From Verrucomicrobiia bacterium Tous-C4TDCM (GTDB taxonomy: Bacteria; Verrucomicrobiota; Verrucomicrobiia; Verrucomicrobiales; Akkermansiaceae): DNA of 38,324 bases. Location: positions 1 through 38,324 of the forward strand of contig NEUO01000018.1 in the NCBI GenBank assembly GCA_002304315.1, written 5' to 3'. The notes beneath the pieces are model-generated. The model saw nothing but the letters and a program-made list of their open reading frames with translations, was not told the DNA's origin and did no database searches. Position numbers and translations under genes: made by a program. Of this stretch, positions 5,767 through 33,102 are shown piece after piece (the stretch's first letter is position 1; each line of letters starts with the position of its first letter).

Positions 5767-5874
5767 GGATTGACGATTGAGGAATGTTGATTTTCGATTG
5801 TTGAATTGACCGAAAGGCAAAATCTTCTACCTCCAATCAAAAATCAACATTCCTCAATCATCAATCGTCAATCC
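5767..5874. repeat. Inverted repeat whose arms are built of heptamers (AATCNNC-type)
   Basis: Left arm GGATTGACGATTGAGGAATGTTGATTTT (5767-5794); right arm AAAATCAACATTCCTCAATCATCAATCGTCAATCC (5840-5874). The reverse complement of the right arm equals the left arm plus one 7-nt unit. Confidence 0.85.
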
Positions 5875-14042: not shown

Positions 14043-14480
<438 letters not shown>

Positions 14481-25092: not shown

Positions 25093-26046
25093 TCAACCCC
25101 GCACCACCACCAACCTCCCAGCCCGCCTTCTCATCACCCACCCTCCCGGCAGATTCACCGCCGGCCCCGCCGCGGGATCCATCAAGCCCAGACAGCGCTC
25201 CACCACCTCCCGCGAAAGTTCCGTCACCCCGGAAGTACGAAGGTAATCGTAGATGCAGGCCGCCTGCACCGCTTCCGGCAGCGTCCTCAACCGCGGCACG
25301 TGCAGCCGCCCCTGCGGATCCACCGCCGCCGCCTGCGCCACCGCCCAGCGTTCGATCTCCCGCATCTCGGCCGATCCTTCTTCCGCCCGCCGCAGCGATT
25401 CCCCCACATCCCGCCGCGCAATCTCCGCCAACAGTGGCAGCGCCTCGTTGCGCAAACGGTTCCGCGCCGCCACCGGCTGGGCATTGCTCGCGTCTTCTCT
25501 CCAAGTCAGCCGTTCCGCCCTCAGCCACTCCCGCAACTGCTCACGCCGCGCCCCCAGCAAGGGCCGCAAGCATTCCACCAGCTGCCCGCCGAGTTTCAGC
25601 ACCTGGCTTTCCTTCATCCCGGTGAAACCCCGGCTGCCCCTCAACAGGTTCCATAAAATCGTCTCCGCCTGATCGTCCGCATGATGGGCAAGCAGCAGCC
25701 GGTCGCAGCGATACTTCCGCGAGCATTCACCGAAAAACCCATGCCGCGCCTCCCGCGCCGCCGTTTCCATCGAGGCGCCGCTCGACTTCATCAGCGCCCG
25801 CACCTCCGCCTTGCCCGACTCACAGCGATAGCCCAGCGAAGCCGCCAGCTTTTCGACAAAGCGCGCATCCCCCGCCGACGCCCGCCCGCGCAGCCCGTGG
25901 TCGAGGTGGCAAACCACCACCTCACGGAATCCATGCCGGTGCAGCAAATGCAGCAGCGCCACCGAATCCGCCCCGCCCGAAATGCCCGCGAGGTAGCGCC
26001 GCCGCTTCGGCGCTTCACGAAACCAGGCGATGTCCGGCAGCGGCAC
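25093..26046 (-). CDS. tilS: tRNA(Ile)-lysidine synthetase
   Basis: YLAGISGGADSVALLHLL PP-loop, HLDHGLRGRAS, LLAHHADDQAETILWNLLRGSR; GTG start at 26046 proposed. Confidence 0.88.
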   Translation of the reverse strand: MPLPDIAWFREAPKRRRYLAGISGGADSVALLHLLHRHGFREVVVCHLDHGLRGRASAGDARFVEKLAASLGYRCESGKAEVRALMKSSGASMETAAREARHGFFGECSRKYRCDRLLLAHHADDQAETILWNLLRGSRGFTGMKESQVLKLGGQLVECLRPLLGARREQLREWLRAERLTWREDASNAQPVAARNRLRNEALPLLAEIARRDVGESLRRAEEGSAEMREIERWAVAQAAAVDPQGRLHVPRLRTLPEAVQAACIYDYLRTSGVTELSREVVERCLGLMDPAAGPAVNLPGGWVMRRRAGRLVVVRG

Positions 26047-26137
26047 GAACCATCCATGCCATCGCCGGAGCGAAGGCGGAATCCGAAACTCCCGCGGCTT
26101 GCCTTCCGCGCCGTGTCGCTCAATCCTGCCTGCCCGT

Positions 26138-28894
26138 TTGAACACCTCGCCCGACATCCACGCCTTCTTCGACGACGAGCTCTGGCACGAGCGCTTCGAC
26201 GACGAGTGCCTGCAAGCCGGCCAGCGCCTCCGGCCGAAGGTCCGCGAGCTCGTCGCCGAGTGGCCCGACGCCGACAGCATCACCCTTCGCGCCGAAGTCG
26301 CCGGCGAGCCCTGCGAAGTCTCCCTCTGGCCCTCCGGTGGCGGCTGGGACTTCGAAAGCACCTGCACCTGCGAGGTCCGCAGCTTCTGCCCCCACGCCGC
26401 CGCCCTGTTAGAAGAAGCTGCCAAACCCAAGAACCTCCCCCGCCTGCTCGATGGCAAACCGGTCCGCACATCATCCCCCGTCCTCCCCGGGACCGTCCCC
26501 GGGACCGCCGGTCATCAGACCGGCTCGGATCCTGCCGACACCCCCCACCTCGAACTCCGCCCGACCTTTCACCTCGACGTCGTCCGCGAGGAAACCTCGT
26601 CGAAGGTCGTCCGCCTCCTCCTCCAGGCCCTCAAGATCCCCGACCTCGGCGACTGGGTCGTCGCCCGTCCGCTCGCCCTCTACGGCGAGCACCGGATTCC
26701 CCTCGGCGGCATCCCCGGCCCGCGCGAACTCCGCCTCGACACCCCGCAAGGCCCGCTCGTGCTGCGCCGCGACATCGCCGCCGAGATGAACGCCATCATG
26801 GCCCTCCAGCAAGCCGGCCTCGCCAGCCTCTCCGGCCATTCGCAGTACCGCTTCCTCCTCGGTCTGGAATCCAGAAATCAACAATCAACAATCAACAATC
26901 GTCAATCGTCCGCCCTCTGGTTCCCCAACCCCGCCCACGGCAACCTCCCCGAGTTCTGGCCCTGGCTCCGCGCCACCGGCGGACCCATCCTTGAAAGCCA
27001 AAACTGGACCGTCGCCTTCGCCCCGGAAGTCGGCCACGAGATCATCGACCTCGATCCCGAAGGCTTCGTCTATCAGCTCGAGGACGACGGCAGCGGCTGG
27101 TTCCACCTCTCGGTCGGCTTCGATGTCGGCGGCAAGCAGCTCGATCTCCTCCCGATCCTCGCCCAGTTGTTAGAGCGCGGCGCGATGGAGTCCTCGCTCG
27201 AATTCCCCGCCGACGGCCACTTCCTCCACCACCTGCCCGACGGCCGCGCCCTGCGCCTCCCCGCCGCCCGCATCCGCCGCATCCTGAAGCAATTTTCCGC
27301 CCTGATCGACCCGCGCCGCTTCAAGGGCTCCAAGCTCAAGCTCCACCCGCTCGACGCCGCCGCCATCGCGACCTCCGAGGAACTTGGCATCCAAGCCCCC
27401 GAACGCCTCGCCGAACTCGCCGCGAAGCTCACCAACTTTGCCGGCATCGAGAAGATTCCGCAGCCCGCCGGCATCCAGGCCCAGCTCCGCGAGTACCAGA
27501 CCACCGGCTTCCACTGGATGCAGTTCCTCGCCCGCCACGAACTCCACGGCATCCTCGCCGACGACATGGGCCTCGGTAAAACCCTGCAAACCATCACCCA
27601 CATCCTCGCCGAAAAAGACAGCGGCCGCTCGCAGGGCAAGCCGGTCCTCGTCGTCGCGCCGACCAGCGTCGTCCCGAACTGGCGCGCCGAAGCCCAGAGG
27701 TTCGCCCCCTCACTGCGTATCCTCATGTTAGACGGCCCGCAGCGGAAAAAATACTTCCGCTCCATCCCCTACGCCGACCTCGTCCTGACCTCCTACGCCC
27801 TGGTCCAGCGCGACATCGACGCGCTCAAAGGCCACCGCTTCCACCTCGCCGTCCTCGACGAGGCGCAGTATATCAAAAACCCCGCCGCCAAGGTCGCGCA
27901 GGCCGCCTGCCAGCTCGATGCCCGCCACCGCCTCTGCCTCTCCGGCACCCCGGTCGAGAACCACCTCGGCGAACTCTGGAGCCTGATGAAGTTCCTGATG
28001 CCCGGCTTCCTCGGCGGCCAGGAAGAGTTCAACCGCCGCTTCCGCAACCCGATCGAAAAAGACGGCGACGAGGACCGCCGGCTCGCCCTCAAGGCCCGCG
28101 TCGCCCCGCTCATCCTCCGCCGCAACAAGACCGAGGTCGCCAAGGAACTGCCGCCGAAGACCATCCTCATCCACCCGGTCGAGCTCAACACCGCGCAGAA
28201 GGACCTCTACGAAACCGTCCGAGCGACGATGGACAAACGGGTCCGCCAGTCGATCGCGATCAAGGGTCTCGAAGGCTCGCGGATGGTCTTCCTCGAAGCC
28301 CTGCTCAAGCTCCGCCAGATCTGCTGCGAGCCGAAGCTGCTGAAGTTCGAGGGTGAATCGAAGCTCGAAGCCGACGCCGCCGGCTCCGCCAAGCTCGACT
28401 ACCTCGCCGACCTGTTGGAGACGCTGATCGAGGAAGGTCGCCGCATCCTGATCTTCTCGCAGTTCACCTCGATGCTCGAAATCATCGAGAAGCTCCTCCA
28501 ACTACGAAAGACACCTTACTTGAAGCTCACCGGCGAATCGAAGAACCGCGGCGAGCTCGTCGAGAAATTCCAGACCGGCAACTTCCCCGTCTTCCTGATC
28601 TCGCTCAAAGCCGGCGGCACCGGCCTCAACCTCACCGCCGCCGACACCGTGATCCACTACGACCCCTGGTGGAACCCCGCCGCCGAGGCCCAGGCCACCG
28701 ACCGCGCCTACCGCATCGGCCAGACCCAGCCGGTCTTCGTCCACAAGCTCATCTGCCAGGGCACCGTCGAGGAACGCATCCACCAGCTCCAGGCCAAGAA
28801 AAGCCAGCTCGCCGACAGCCTCCTCTCCGACGCCGCCCGCGCCGCCGCGCCGGATGAAAGCACGCTGTCCGCGCTGCTCGCGCCGCTGGGGTGA
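26138..28894 (+). CDS. SWIM zinc-finger SNF2-family DEAD/DEAH helicase
   Basis: CTCEVRSFCPHAAAL (SWIM), ADDMGLGKTLQTI, LDEAQYIKN, LSGTPVENHLGELWSL, ATDRAYRIGQTQPV. A TTG start at 26138 would avoid overlap with tilS; the ATG option is 26030. Confidence 0.9.
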   Translation: MNTSPDIHAFFDDELWHERFDDECLQAGQRLRPKVRELVAEWPDADSITLRAEVAGEPCEVSLWPSGGGWDFESTCTCEVRSFCPHAAALLEEAAKPKNLPRLLDGKPVRTSSPVLPGTVPGTAGHQTGSDPADTPHLELRPTFHLDVVREETSSKVVRLLLQALKIPDLGDWVVARPLALYGEHRIPLGGIPGPRELRLDTPQGPLVLRRDIAAEMNAIMALQQAGLASLSGHSQYRFLLGLESRNQQSTINNRQSSALWFPNPAHGNLPEFWPWLRATGGPILESQNWTVAFAPEVGHEIIDLDPEGFVYQLEDDGSGWFHLSVGFDVGGKQLDLLPILAQLLERGAMESSLEFPADGHFLHHLPDGRALRLPAARIRRILKQFSALIDPRRFKGSKLKLHPLDAAAIATSEELGIQAPERLAELAAKLTNFAGIEKIPQPAGIQAQLREYQTTGFHWMQFLARHELHGILADDMGLGKTLQTITHILAEKDSGRSQGKPVLVVAPTSVVPNWRAEAQRFAPSLRILMLDGPQRKKYFRSIPYADLVLTSYALVQRDIDALKGHRFHLAVLDEAQYIKNPAAKVAQAACQLDARHRLCLSGTPVENHLGELWSLMKFLMPGFLGGQEEFNRRFRNPIEKDGDEDRRLALKARVAPLILRRNKTEVAKELPPKTILIHPVELNTAQKDLYETVRATMDKRVRQSIAIKGLEGSRMVFLEALLKLRQICCEPKLLKFEGESKLEADAAGSAKLDYLADLLETLIEEGRRILIFSQFTSMLEIIEKLLQLRKTPYLKLTGESKNRGELVEKFQTGNFPVFLISLKAGGTGLNLTAADTVIHYDPWWNPAAEAQATDRAYRIGQTQPVFVHKLICQGTVEERIHQLQAKKSQLADSLLSDAARAAAPDESTLSALLAPLG
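26497..26524. repeat. Second copy of the 28-bp repeat, inside the helicase CDS
   Basis: CCCCGGGACCGCCGGTCATCAGACCGGC; encodes part of PGTVPGTAGHQTGS. Confidence 0.8.
26876..26910. repeat. Five tandem heptamers (AATCAAC x3, AATCGTC x2) inside the helicase CDS
   Basis: Exact reading AATCAACAATCAACAATCAACAATCGTCAATCGTC; encodes part of RNQQSTINNRQSS. Confidence 0.95.
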
Positions 28895-28927
28895 AGTGTC
28901 GTCTCACACGGCCGTGCGGTCCGGCGT

Positions 28928-29350
28928 TCAGCGCGTGTTCGCGGTTCTGACTCCGGGGTAGTCGAGCAGCACTTGATCCGAGGTGAGGAGGGTGAGGTCG
29001 TGGTGCCGGGCGGTGGCGACGATGATCAGATCCATGGGATCCTTGTGGACGTTTCCCTGGCGGTTGACGAATGGCTGGGGGAGCCGGGTGGCATCGACGG
29101 CAATCGGAGGAGAGACATCGAGGAGAATGATTTTCCCTTTGGGCAGCGCGATGCGCTCGAACCACTCGGCGCAAGGCATGGAGATGCTGATGTCGCCGCG
29201 CACTTCTTTTCTCGCGAACTCGATCAGGCTGACGGAACAGAGATGAAGCGGGGTCTTGCTCGCGATGATCTTGCGGACGGACTGTCGCAGCTTCTCGGGA
29301 GCGAGGAGGGCATCGATCCAAGCACAGGTATCGAGGAGGTAACCGGGCAT
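28928..29350 (-). CDS. PIN-domain (VapC-like) ribonuclease toxin
   Basis: YLLDTCAWIDALL, SVSLIEFARK, DPMDLIIVATARHHDLTLLTSDQ. Confidence 0.88.
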   Translation of the reverse strand: MPGYLLDTCAWIDALLAPEKLRQSVRKIIASKTPLHLCSVSLIEFARKEVRGDISISMPCAEWFERIALPKGKIILLDVSPPIAVDATRLPQPFVNRQGNVHKDPMDLIIVATARHHDLTLLTSDQVLLDYPGVRTANTR

Positions 29351-29355
29351 GGATT

Positions 29356-29604
29356 TCAACGGTTCATTTCCCAATCTTCCTCATCGAAGGCGGGGGCGTG
29401 CGGATCATAGGATTCGTTGAGGGTCGCGGTGGCTTTGCCGGCCCCAAGGAGCGTCGCAATCGGTTCCTCCACGGGTTTGCCAACCACGGCAATGGTTTTG
29501 CCGTGGCGGGTGACCTGGAGGATCACGTTGCCTTTTTCCACTTCCCGCATCTCCTCGGTGCAGTGGGCCTTGAACTCGCTGATGCTGATCTGGCGGACGT
29601 TCAT
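29356..29604 (-). CDS. Phd/YefM-type antitoxin
   Basis: VRQISISEFKAHCTEEMREVEKGNVILQVTRHGKTIAVV; immediately upstream of the PIN toxin; longer start possible at 29616. Confidence 0.83.
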   Translation of the reverse strand: MNVRQISISEFKAHCTEEMREVEKGNVILQVTRHGKTIAVVGKPVEEPIATLLGAGKATATLNESYDPHAPAFDEEDWEMNR

Positions 29605-29616
29605 GAGATGATGCAT

Positions 29617-29642
29617 AATTTGATCAGAAAAATGGTCAAATT
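29617..29642. promoter_or_regulatory. Candidate TA operator palindrome
   Basis: AATTTGATC-AGAAAAAT-GGTCAAATT, 8 of 9 paired arm positions, just upstream of the antitoxin start. Confidence 0.5.
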
Positions 29643-29672
29643 CAAAATCGCGGCCAGCGTTTGCGTTTCGGC

Positions 29673-29840
29673 CAGCCGGTCTTCCTCCACAAGCTCATCT
29701 GCCAGGGCACCGTCGAGGAGCGCATCCACCCCCTCCAGGCCAAGAAAAGCCAGCTCGCCGACAGCCTCCTCTCCGATGACGCCCGGGCTGCGGGCAAGCC
29801 GGTTCAAGGAGTTACCGAAAAGTCTCCAGAGCATGGTTGA
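29673..29840 (+). pseudogene. Remnant of a second SNF2 helicase 3' end
   Basis: 29673-29776 matches 28727-28830 at 100 of 104 positions; same frame reads QPVFLHKLICQGTVEERIHPLQAKKSQLADSLLSDDARAAG... to TGA at 29838-29840. Confidence 0.85.
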
Positions 29841-29910
29841 GCCGATTGGGCAACCTAATCGGCTCACGATTTTGCTAGATATCGAGCCGATTATCGGTCG
29901 TATTCGGCTC
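29839..29910. promoter_or_regulatory. Two tandem 27-bp palindromes upstream of the fic gene
   Basis: GAGCCGATT-N9-AATCGGCTC at 29839-29865 and GAGCCGATT-N9-ATTCGGCTC at 29884-29910. Confidence 0.8.
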
Positions 29911-31017
29911 ATGACCTACAATTGGCAGCAACCCGACTGGCCGGAGTTCCGCTTCGACCTTGGCGATGTGGCTGCTCTTCTGACCTCATTCGCCGACCAT
30001 GCGGGCCGGGTCGGCGGGCTGCTCGAAGGCTTGCCGGGAGACCTGGAAACCGAGGCCGTGCTCGATTTGATGATCGCCGAAGCCGTCCGGTCCTCGGCCA
30101 TCGAGGGCGAGGTTCTAAGCCGCGACGACGTGAGGTCGTCGATCCGTAATCGTCTCGGGCTCAATCCCGTGCCGCAACCGGTGGACAGCCGTTTGGCCGA
30201 CGGTGCCGGCGAGCTGATGGTCGCGGTCCGCAACGGCTTCCAGGAACCCCTGTCCGAAGAAATGTTGTTCGCATGGCACCGAATGCTCCTCGGTGGCAGC
30301 ACCGACTTGCGGGTCGGCGGCTTGCGCGAGGGCGGGGATCCGATGCAGGTGGTCTCGGGCCGGATCGACCGGCCGACCGTTCATTTCGAAGCGCCTCCGT
30401 CGGCACGCGTTGCCGAAGAGATGGCGCGATTTATCCGGTGGTTCAATGACAGCGCCCCCGGCGGTCCGCGCGAGATTCCGCAGCCTCCGCTGCGCTCGGC
30501 GCTCGCTCATCTTTACTTTGAGAGCATCCACCCTTTCGAGGATGGCAACGGCCGCCTGGGCCGAGCGCTCTCGGAAAAGGCGCTATCCCAAGGACTCGGT
30601 CGACCGGTCGTGCTCAGCCTGTCCCGGACGATCGAAGCCGAACGGAACGCCTACTACGACGCCCTGAAGGCCGCCCAACGGAGCAATGAAGTCACCCCGT
30701 GGGTGCATTGGTTTGTCGGCATCGTCGTGACTGCCCAGCGCGATGCGGAAGCCCAGGTGCGCTTCGTTCTCCGGAAATCAAAGTTCTTCCAGCGCTTCGA
30801 ACGCGAACTGAACGAGCGCCAGCTCAAGGTGGTCCGCCGGATGTTCGAAGCCGGACCGGAAGGCTTCACCGGCGGCATGAACGCCCGCAAATACGTCGCC
30901 CTCACCGGCAGCTCCAAGGCCACCGCGACGCGCGACCTTCAGGAGCTTGCCCGGCTCGGAGCGCTGGTTGCCGTCGGCGGCGGACGCAGCACCCGCTACG
31001 AACTCACGTCGGCTTGA
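29911..31017 (+). CDS. Fic family protein with C-terminal winged-helix-like region
   Basis: HPFEDGNGRLGR Fic motif; SSAIEGE inhibitory-type motif; C-terminal YVALTGSSKATATRDLQELARLGALVAVGGGRSTRYEL. Confidence 0.9.
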   Translation: MTYNWQQPDWPEFRFDLGDVAALLTSFADHAGRVGGLLEGLPGDLETEAVLDLMIAEAVRSSAIEGEVLSRDDVRSSIRNRLGLNPVPQPVDSRLADGAGELMVAVRNGFQEPLSEEMLFAWHRMLLGGSTDLRVGGLREGGDPMQVVSGRIDRPTVHFEAPPSARVAEEMARFIRWFNDSAPGGPREIPQPPLRSALAHLYFESIHPFEDGNGRLGRALSEKALSQGLGRPVVLSLSRTIEAERNAYYDALKAAQRSNEVTPWVHWFVGIVVTAQRDAEAQVRFVLRKSKFFQRFERELNERQLKVVRRMFEAGPEGFTGGMNARKYVALTGSSKATATRDLQELARLGALVAVGGGRSTRYELTSA

Positions 31018-31023
31018 TCTGGC

Positions 31024-31686
31024 CTAAAACGGCAGGTCGTCATCCTCCCGCCAATCGTTCTCAATCGGAGCCGGCGGCCAACCATCAGCCCGTTCGCCGG
31101 TGATCACGCCCGGCCCGCACACCATGAACCGGGTGCGTGGCAGGCGCTGCATGCCCCAGCCGCGGAAATGGTTCATCAGGCGGTCTTGATCTTCCTCGCC
31201 GTCGTTCCATGGAAGCTCACGGATTTCATCGTCGAACTCATCATAATCCCCCGGCCGGCGTTGCAGCGGGCGCGCATCCAGCAGCACCGCGCCGATCCGG
31301 TGGTCCGCGCAGCAGCGGACGACTTCGCGCAAGATCTCAAGCCCGAGTCCCTTGCGGCGAAAGGCAGGACGCAGCGCGATGAAATCGACGACGATCAACC
31401 CCGGCGCGTCCCGGAGCATGCGCGGCAGGGGTTCGCGGAACTTGGTGTGCCCCGGATTGATGATGTCCTCGTAAACGCCGCAAACATCGCCGTCGAGATC
31501 CCACAACTCCATGAAGGCCCGCGGCGAGTCGAGCTTGTCGGCGGTGATATACCAGACGAACAACTGCCCCGCCTTCTCGCCCTCGACTTCGATCCGGCCT
31601 TGGATCGTCAGCGCGCAGTCCAGCGCGATCACCGGATCCGAATCCAAGTCTTCGTCAATGCGTTGGACTGTCCAGTGGATGTTCAT
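31024..31686 (-). CDS. GNAT-like acetyltransferase domain protein
   Basis: VVDFIALRPAFRRKGLGLEILREVVRCCADHRIGAVLLDARPLQ resembles GNAT motif A. Confidence 0.6.
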   Translation of the reverse strand: MNIHWTVQRIDEDLDSDPVIALDCALTIQGRIEVEGEKAGQLFVWYITADKLDSPRAFMELWDLDGDVCGVYEDIINPGHTKFREPLPRMLRDAPGLIVVDFIALRPAFRRKGLGLEILREVVRCCADHRIGAVLLDARPLQRRPGDYDEFDDEIRELPWNDGEEDQDRLMNHFRGWGMQRLPRTRFMVCGPGVITGERADGWPPAPIENDWREDDDLPF

Positions 31687-31839
31687 GGCTTGAGAGAGGG
31701 TGACGTTTCGAGTGATCGGGATGATTTTGCCCGTCTCCTTTCCCGGTGCAAGCCCGGCTTCCGCCCGCTGTGCCGGGAGCTGAATTCCGCCGCCACTTGC
31801 ACACTCGACTCCGCCCGGGCACCCGCGTAGGCATCCGCC

Positions 31840-33102
31840 ATGTCCGCTCCCTTGTCCATCGCCATCCTCGGCTGCGGTTCCCGCGGCCGGACCTACGCCA
31901 AGATCGCCGCGTCCTTCGGCGATCGCTACGAACTGACGGCGGCGGCCGATCCGGTCGCAGTCCGGCGAGAAACGGTGGCGGCCCTCGGTGAGGACGTGGC
32001 CGTATTCGATTCCGCCGACGCCCTCTTCGCCGCGGGCAAGCTCGCCGATGTGCTGGTCATCGCCACCCAGGACGCCCAGCATTTCGGTCACGCCATGGCC
32101 GCGCTGGAGACCGGCTACGACGTGCTGTTAGAGAAGCCCGCCGCGGAGTCGCTTGAGCGCTGCGAGGCCATCGACCGCCGCGCCCGCGAACTGGGCCGCC
32201 GCGTGGCGCTCGGCTTCGTGCTGCGCTACACGCCCTTCTACTCCACGGTGAAAGAAGTGGTCGAAAGCGGTCGCCTCGGCCGGGTGATCTCGATCCGCAC
32301 CCACGAAGGCGTGGAGCCCTATCATCAGGCGCACTCCTTCGTCCGCGGCCACTGGCGCAGCGCGAAAGGCTCGACGCCGATGATCGTGGCGAAGTGCTCC
32401 CACGATGCCGACCTGCTGTGCTGGCTGGGCGATGCCGTGGCGGCATCGATTTCCTCCTATGGAGATCGTACTTGGTTCCGTGCGGAGAACGCCCCGGCCG
32501 GCGCGCCGGCGCGCTGCACCGATGGCTGCCCCGCCGCGAAGGACTGCCTCTACGACGCCCACCGCTACCTCGGCGACAAGCGCCGCTGGCTCCGCATGGT
32601 CCTCGATGGCTCGGAAGAGGCGGAGGACGAAACCATCCTCGAATTCCTGCGCACCTCGCCGTGGGGTCGCTGCGTTTACCGCTGCGACAACGACGTCGTC
32701 GACCATCAGGTGCTGGCCTGCGAGCTGGAGAACGGCATCACCGCGACCCACACGATGACCGCCTTCGACTGCGGCCGGACGATCGAGATTTACGGCACGA
32801 AAGCGGCGCTCAAGGGTGGCACTCCTTACGAGGAAGCCGGCGCATCCGAGCTCTGGCTGCGCCATCACCTTGACGGCCGGATCGAGCCGGTCGAAATCCT
32901 CAAGCCTTCCGACGACGGTTACGCGGGCCATGGCGGCGGTGACTACGGCATCGTCGATGCCTTCGACCGCCTGTTCCGCGGCCCCGACGCCCTCCCGCCC
33001 GGCCTCGACGGCCTGGCCGGCCACCGCCTTGCCTTCCTCGCGGAAGCGTCACGCGTTGCGACGGGCAGGGCGATATCACCGGATTCGACACCAGCTTCCT
33101 GA
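31840..33102 (+). CDS. Gfo/Idh/MocA family oxidoreductase
   Basis: IAILGCGSRGRTYAKIAA; VLLEKPAAES; RVALGFVLRYTPFY. Confidence 0.9.
   Translation: MSAPLSIAILGCGSRGRTYAKIAASFGDRYELTAAADPVAVRRETVAALGEDVAVFDSADALFAAGKLADVLVIATQDAQHFGHAMAALETGYDVLLEKPAAESLERCEAIDRRARELGRRVALGFVLRYTPFYSTVKEVVESGRLGRVISIRTHEGVEPYHQAHSFVRGHWRSAKGSTPMIVAKCSHDADLLCWLGDAVAASISSYGDRTWFRAENAPAGAPARCTDGCPAAKDCLYDAHRYLGDKRRWLRMVLDGSEEAEDETILEFLRTSPWGRCVYRCDNDVVDHQVLACELENGITATHTMTAFDCGRTIEIYGTKAALKGGTPYEEAGASELWLRHHLDGRIEPVEILKPSDDGYAGHGGGDYGIVDAFDRLFRGPDALPPGLDGLAGHRLAFLAEASRVATGRAISPDSTPAS

Follow-up and report, generated by a model that had tools for sequence, protein, structure and literature searches.

The window, by which we mean the whole 38,324-nucleotide stretch of DNA analysed here, carries the 3′ end of one SNF2-family helicase gene twice, once within the intact gene and once beyond a toxin–antitoxin pair, and the question is how the second copy came to lie there. 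The initial annotation had described 28727-28830 and 29673-29776 as matching at 100 of 104 positions in the same orientation, 946 bp apart. Realignment reproduced this exactly, with mismatches at 28739, 28774, 28785 and 28786, and extended the repeat to 120 nt at 93% identity (E ~1e-46). No other direct repeat of at least 30 nt outside low-complexity sequence was found in the 38-kb window. Elsewhere the window contains a long AT-rich inverted repeat at 5767-5874, whose 33-nt arms are 94% complementary and part of which also matches near a paralogous helicase on contig C68 (L042), and a low-complexity glycine-rich coding stretch of GGC/GGT repeats at 14287-14466.

The locus was compared across 18 genomes of the window's genus (Haloferula-like, Akkermansiaceae; the genus label is one that we infer). 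Its features are as follows.

26030-28894, forward strand: intact SNF2-family helicase (predicted start), the anchor gene of the hot spot, with single-copy orthologues in the genus (SNF2-rel_dom 1.4e-68, Helicase_C 2e-24)
28726-28845, forward strand: copy 1, the helicase 3′-end stretch within the intact gene (repeat alignment)
28895-31023, no strand: segment inserted relative to the empty site of genome G008, comprising vapBC, the displaced helicase tail and fic (G008 comparison)
28928-29374, reverse strand: candidate VapC-like PIN-domain toxin (PIN 2.9e-13)
29356-29616, reverse strand: candidate Phd/YefM-like antitoxin (PhdYeFM_antitox 2.9e-5, under the Pfam cut-off; TIGR01552 just at the cut-off)
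29672-29791, forward strand: copy 2, probable displaced helicase 3′-end scar, 93% identical to 28726-28845 (repeat alignment; orthologous to scar D in genome G006)
29792-29840, forward strand: non-helicase tail of the scar open reading frame, common to the window and G006 (alignment)
29838-29911, no strand: two palindromes before fic, with arms at 29838-29847/29858-29867 and about 29884-29891/29903-29911 (sequence)
29911-31017, forward strand: Fic protein with DUF4172, Fic and C-terminal DNA-binding-like domains (Fic 5.5e-15, DUF4172 1.2e-26; SoFic model in PADLOC)
31024-32091, reverse strand: convergent flank gene, acetyltransferase-like (predicted start; Acetyltransf_1 5.1e-4; synteny)

Between the two copies, where a VapBC-like pair had been proposed, a PIN-domain product adjoins a small Phd/YefM-like candidate, the arrangement that defines a VapBC pair, and we treat the two genes as a putative vapBC module; the product of 28928-29374 scores far under the cut-off of the NCBIfam VapC model. 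Copy 2 keeps the helicase frame (ORF 29661-29840) and ends inside the first palindrome before fic, both as previously described, its TGA (29838-29840) forming the first three bases of that palindrome. The description of copy 2 as a near-copy of the helicase 3′ end holds for the match itself but not for the full 3′ end, as the last ~45 nt of the helicase are missing and the reading frame continues into non-helicase sequence that is also present in G006. This stretch, 29792-29840, probably belongs to the fic module as its 5′ flank. The palindromes have GAGCCGA/TCGGCTC arms, which are largely retained in G006 around spacers that have diverged. Because the arms are kept while the spacers have diverged, the palindromes may possibly serve as operators, perhaps for the C-terminal domain of the Fic protein itself. 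The closest solved relative of this Fic protein is 8cil (3.5e-69).

The site without these modules is represented by G008. Here the helicase match runs to window position 28894 and resumes four G008 bases further on, at window position 31028; TCA, with which the convergent gene terminates, comes immediately after the helicase TGA, and neither vapBC nor fic is present. The acetyltransferase-like gene at 31024-32091 is, in G008, the native neighbour on the right of the helicase. G008 is thus an empty site, and the 2.1 kb at 28895-31023 of the window are an insertion between two convergent stops that abut in G008. Only one helicase copy is present in G004, G007, G009, G011 and other relatives, and two full helicases at this locus were found in no genus genome examined.

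A longer series of insertions is preserved in G006. In the direction of the helicase, its contig C266 starts with tail A at the contig edge, followed by what remains of a vapC 3′ end, dinD, tail B (302 nt, 97%), a KacT/TacT-like acetyltransferase convergent with a TacA1 antitoxin, tail C, vapBC, tail D and fic, beyond which the flank is the same as that of the window; the helicase body lies on another contig. Measured against the intact helicase end that each tail matches best, identity is 97% for A, 96% for B, 91% for C and ~72% for D (whole length), a gradient in which the four tails appear to decay outward. The window and G006 have both layers, fic and vapBC, in common (89% over 4.4 kb), and the G006 orthologue of copy 2 lies in the same position, with substitutions of its own. 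As these layers and this copy are common to both genomes, it is unlikely that copy 2 arose through misassembly of the window genome. Over ~120 nt, copy 2 is 93% identical to the intact end in the window, against 85% for its G006 orthologue; gene conversion with the adjacent intact end may possibly have kept it better preserved. The acetyltransferase and TacA1 antitoxin of G006 (L024, 4858-5735) stand tail to tail, whereas such pairs usually form an antitoxin–toxin operon, and G007 encodes a toxin similar to the G006 KacT/TacT-like one (77% identical DNA).

Helicase tails also lie beside other modules. The G017 assembly is broken at the repeat: ~100 nt of contig C214, which carries the helicase, recur at the right end of C6, and the following 95 nt, up to and including the stop codon, are common to C6 and C248. 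Given these contig ends, the simplest layout is helicase, R, a 6.6-kb type I restriction–modification (RM)/TIGR04255 module, R and the native flank, where R is ~190 nt long, identical in both copies, and has its right end exactly at the helicase stop codon; alternatively, C6 may be circular or tandem. At L041 3045-5003 this genome encodes a 653-aa fusion of a type I specificity region with the C-terminal part of a type I methyltransferase, and a complete HsdM was not observed in the 6.8-kb contig; the RM module may therefore have been rearranged or be inactive. In G001, an AAA_14/DUF4143 ATPase (PADLOC PDC-S01) has a helicase-tail scar behind it, and another, weaker scar stands immediately before a TIGR04255/RM-remnant module. 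This module is 86% identical to that of G017 over 1976 nt, with a helicase tail preceding it in both genomes, and a 247-bp duplication of a different convergent gene junction borders the G001 RM-remnant insert on both sides. In G016 we found an AAA_14-like remnant as well as two helicase-tail fragments. The empty site, together with scars beside different modules in five genus genomes, bears out the earlier suggestion that a module captured or duplicated its insertion target, and the observation that would have told against that suggestion, two full helicases in relatives lacking vapBC, was not made. Paralogous helicases of the window genome, on C68, C122 and C198, were considered as the source of copy 2 and rejected, as they match mainly in the conserved motif region.

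Displaced helicase tails occur in 5/18 genus genomes versus 0/80 helicase homologues (none convincing), all but two of which come from outside the genus (Fisher p = 1e-4, a guide only, which ignores shared ancestry and the two loci of the 80 that lie within the genus). The only extra match among the 80, of 33 nt in L069, was judged to be chance and was not counted. A toxin–antitoxin or defence gene, or a remnant of one, lies directly behind the helicase in half of the genus genomes (9/18), as listed here.

G000 (the window): vapBC and fic
G006: dinD, TacAT, vapBC and fic
G007: TacT-like gene, after one small ORF
G009: lone antitoxin
G012: HyoA antiphage NACHT protein
G003: AbiEii
G001: AAA_14 (remnant in G016)
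G017: type I RM

The G012 protein adjoins the helicase at L029 1819-6372 and is assigned by an NCBIfam equivalog at 1575 bits; PADLOC and Pfam gave no match to it. At 15 outgroup loci the helicase neighbours look ordinary, with one nucleotidyltransferase-like exception, as judged from sequence, and Fisher p for the 9/18 against these neighbours is 0.008, again as a guide that ignores shared ancestry. As a background control, six genus genomes were sampled for a total of 800 kb from other regions, which yielded only three short-range direct repeats of comparable length. One of them, in G009 (L153, 14541-14771/15226-15456), is a 231-nt repeat at 92% identity, in which the 3′ end of an RNA-methyltransferase-like gene is duplicated around a 122-aa ORF. 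Because this is another duplicated gene 3′ end, the process is not limited to the helicase, but it is concentrated there. Our searches of the literature for this locus, or for this genus with toxin–antitoxin hot spots, returned nothing specific.

We consider it probable that copy 2 is a displaced, decaying helicase tail, left as the scar of a module acquisition that combined one homologous crossover with one illegitimate joint. Unrelated modules have been inserted directly after the helicase stop repeatedly, several of them with helicase-tail direct repeats around them. The incoming DNA would consist of a helicase 3′ end followed by a toxin–antitoxin or defence module. A homologous crossover in the helicase 3′ end would fuse the incoming tail, with its module, onto the resident helicase, and the other end of the incoming DNA would join illegitimately inside the resident helicase tail. 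In an equivalent variant, a circle with a truncated helicase tail would integrate by a single crossover; the product of this route is identical to that of linear one-sided recombination. The outcome would be a whole helicase with the new module directly behind it, and the old tail and older modules displaced downstream. Because the convergent stops abut in the clade, the survivors would be only those insertions that regenerate the helicase end. In the window, fic would form the older, outer layer and vapBC the newer, inner one: in the tail that is now copy 2, the fic 5′ flank would have taken the place of the final ~45 nt of helicase sequence, and vapBC would have arrived later with an intact helicase end, displacing the fic-side tail. 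The missing ~45 nt count against this reading, in that the fic-side edge requires an extra step. So does the outcome of searches of plasmid and phage collections, which found no carrier of tail plus module; the matches were partial, covered only the helicase side of the query and were to helicases where annotated. A further weakness is that the G017 layout is read from contig ends and that the helicase body of G006 is on a separate contig.

The edges of the scars show one homologous anchor and one non-homologous joint at variable positions. The right end of complete displaced tails is the true gene end, and the left joints fall at about 28585, 28700 and 28726-28731. Several of the left edges (those of window copy 2, of tails B, C and D of G006, and of G016) are close to a GTCTTC sequence, which could hint at a preferred site and so counts somewhat against the main reading; a fixed crossover core was rejected, as G017 and G001 do not fit. 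For several species pairs, synonymous identity is higher over the last 100 helicase codons than in the gene body (0.91 vs 0.70 for G000-G009, p=4e-6; 0.89 vs 0.66 for G004-G009), and it is not raised in the tail for pairs with G002, G005, G010 or G015. This is suggestive of tail exchange between species, and only suggestive because the tail is raised in most pairs, which may reflect codon constraint.

A more elaborate version, in which the helicase 3′ end serves this genus as a dedicated landing pad, where small circular cassettes of module plus tail that circulate between species integrate by homologous recombination, seems to us unlikely, if worth stating. If it were true, the locus would be an integrase-free, integron-like defence array that renews its entry site at each insertion.

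Also unlikely is insertion with a long target duplication, in which the module enters the helicase 3′ end alone and the target is copied, with no incoming helicase DNA. The product would have the same structure as that of RM systems, which are reported to insert with long, variable target duplications on the order of 100 bp (Nobusato et al. 2000, cited by PMC3874152 and PMC3031569), and the 247-bp duplication around the G001 RM-remnant module shows this structure at a different gene junction. However, the same module keeps a helicase-tail scar at its edge despite its other location, which suggests that helicase DNA moved along with it. Free target copying also does not predict that left repeats end at the stop codon, as they do in the cases checked, and there may have been exchange of tails between species.

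Attachment sites are commonly located at gene 3′ ends, and repeats flank the modules here, as they would if a tyrosine or serine recombinase had used the helicase 3′ end for site-specific integration. We regard this as very improbable: no recombinase or integrase was found in the window insert or in the module proteins scanned from the strains sampled, the left edges vary over ~145 nt with no fixed crossover core, the modules are unrelated to one another, and a similar duplication occurs at an unrelated gene junction (G001). A collapsed tandem duplication of the whole helicase, once proposed for this locus, or an assembly artefact would account for the shared orientation and frame of copy 2 but can practically be dismissed, as every same-genus relative with a readable locus has one full helicase, including the module-free G008, and the orthologous G006 scar carries independent substitutions.

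The insertions behind the helicase resemble several known systems. As in RM insertions, a stand-alone module lies between target repeats of ~100-250 bp with no mobile-element enzyme, and an RM system is among the cargo (G017). The module is flanked by target repeats of 120 nt in the window, ~190 nt in G017 and 247 nt in G001, and is absent from the empty site, where G008 has a single copy. Here, in contrast, the 3′ end of one gene has served repeatedly as the duplicated target, the cargo includes toxin–antitoxin and other defence genes stacked in an array with decaying scars, and the helicase tail seems to travel with the module. The displaced effector–immunity arrays of the Vibrio cholerae type VI secretion system (T6SS), explained by a process akin to linear one-sided recombination (PMC5361080), and orphan Rhs/CDI modules likewise combine homology on one side with an illegitimate joint on the other, and place the new module beside a conserved anchor as older pieces and anchor fragments are pushed downstream. 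In those systems the anchor encodes the toxin and its C terminus changes, whereas here it is a helicase whose protein is unchanged, and the cargo consists of toxin–antitoxin or anti-phage genes. In E. coli conjugation, gene-end duplications of 109-950 bp around inserted DNA were produced experimentally and attributed to the single crossover of truncated-homology circles (PMC3240628), in a laboratory plasmid system with selection at lacZ rather than a natural hot spot. The array also resembles integron cassette arrays, in which the newest cassette adjoins the anchor, older ones are pushed outward and the entry site is regenerated, but neither an integrase nor attC or a fixed core site was found here.

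It is a standing question by what means stand-alone toxin–antitoxin and anti-phage modules move when they have neither transposase nor integrase. From the genomes compared, the helicase 3′ flank appears to be a spot at which this genus repeatedly stacks toxin and anti-phage genes without a visible integrase, and one genus preserves several of the steps: a site that is still empty, one insertion between near-perfect repeats, and an array of several modules whose scars are decaying. The acquisition is of a known, integrase-free kind, and its occurrence as a toxin and defence array behind an SNF2 helicase is a new variation. Gene-end scars of this sort provide a simple sequence signature for such hot spots and for unrecognised defence genes.
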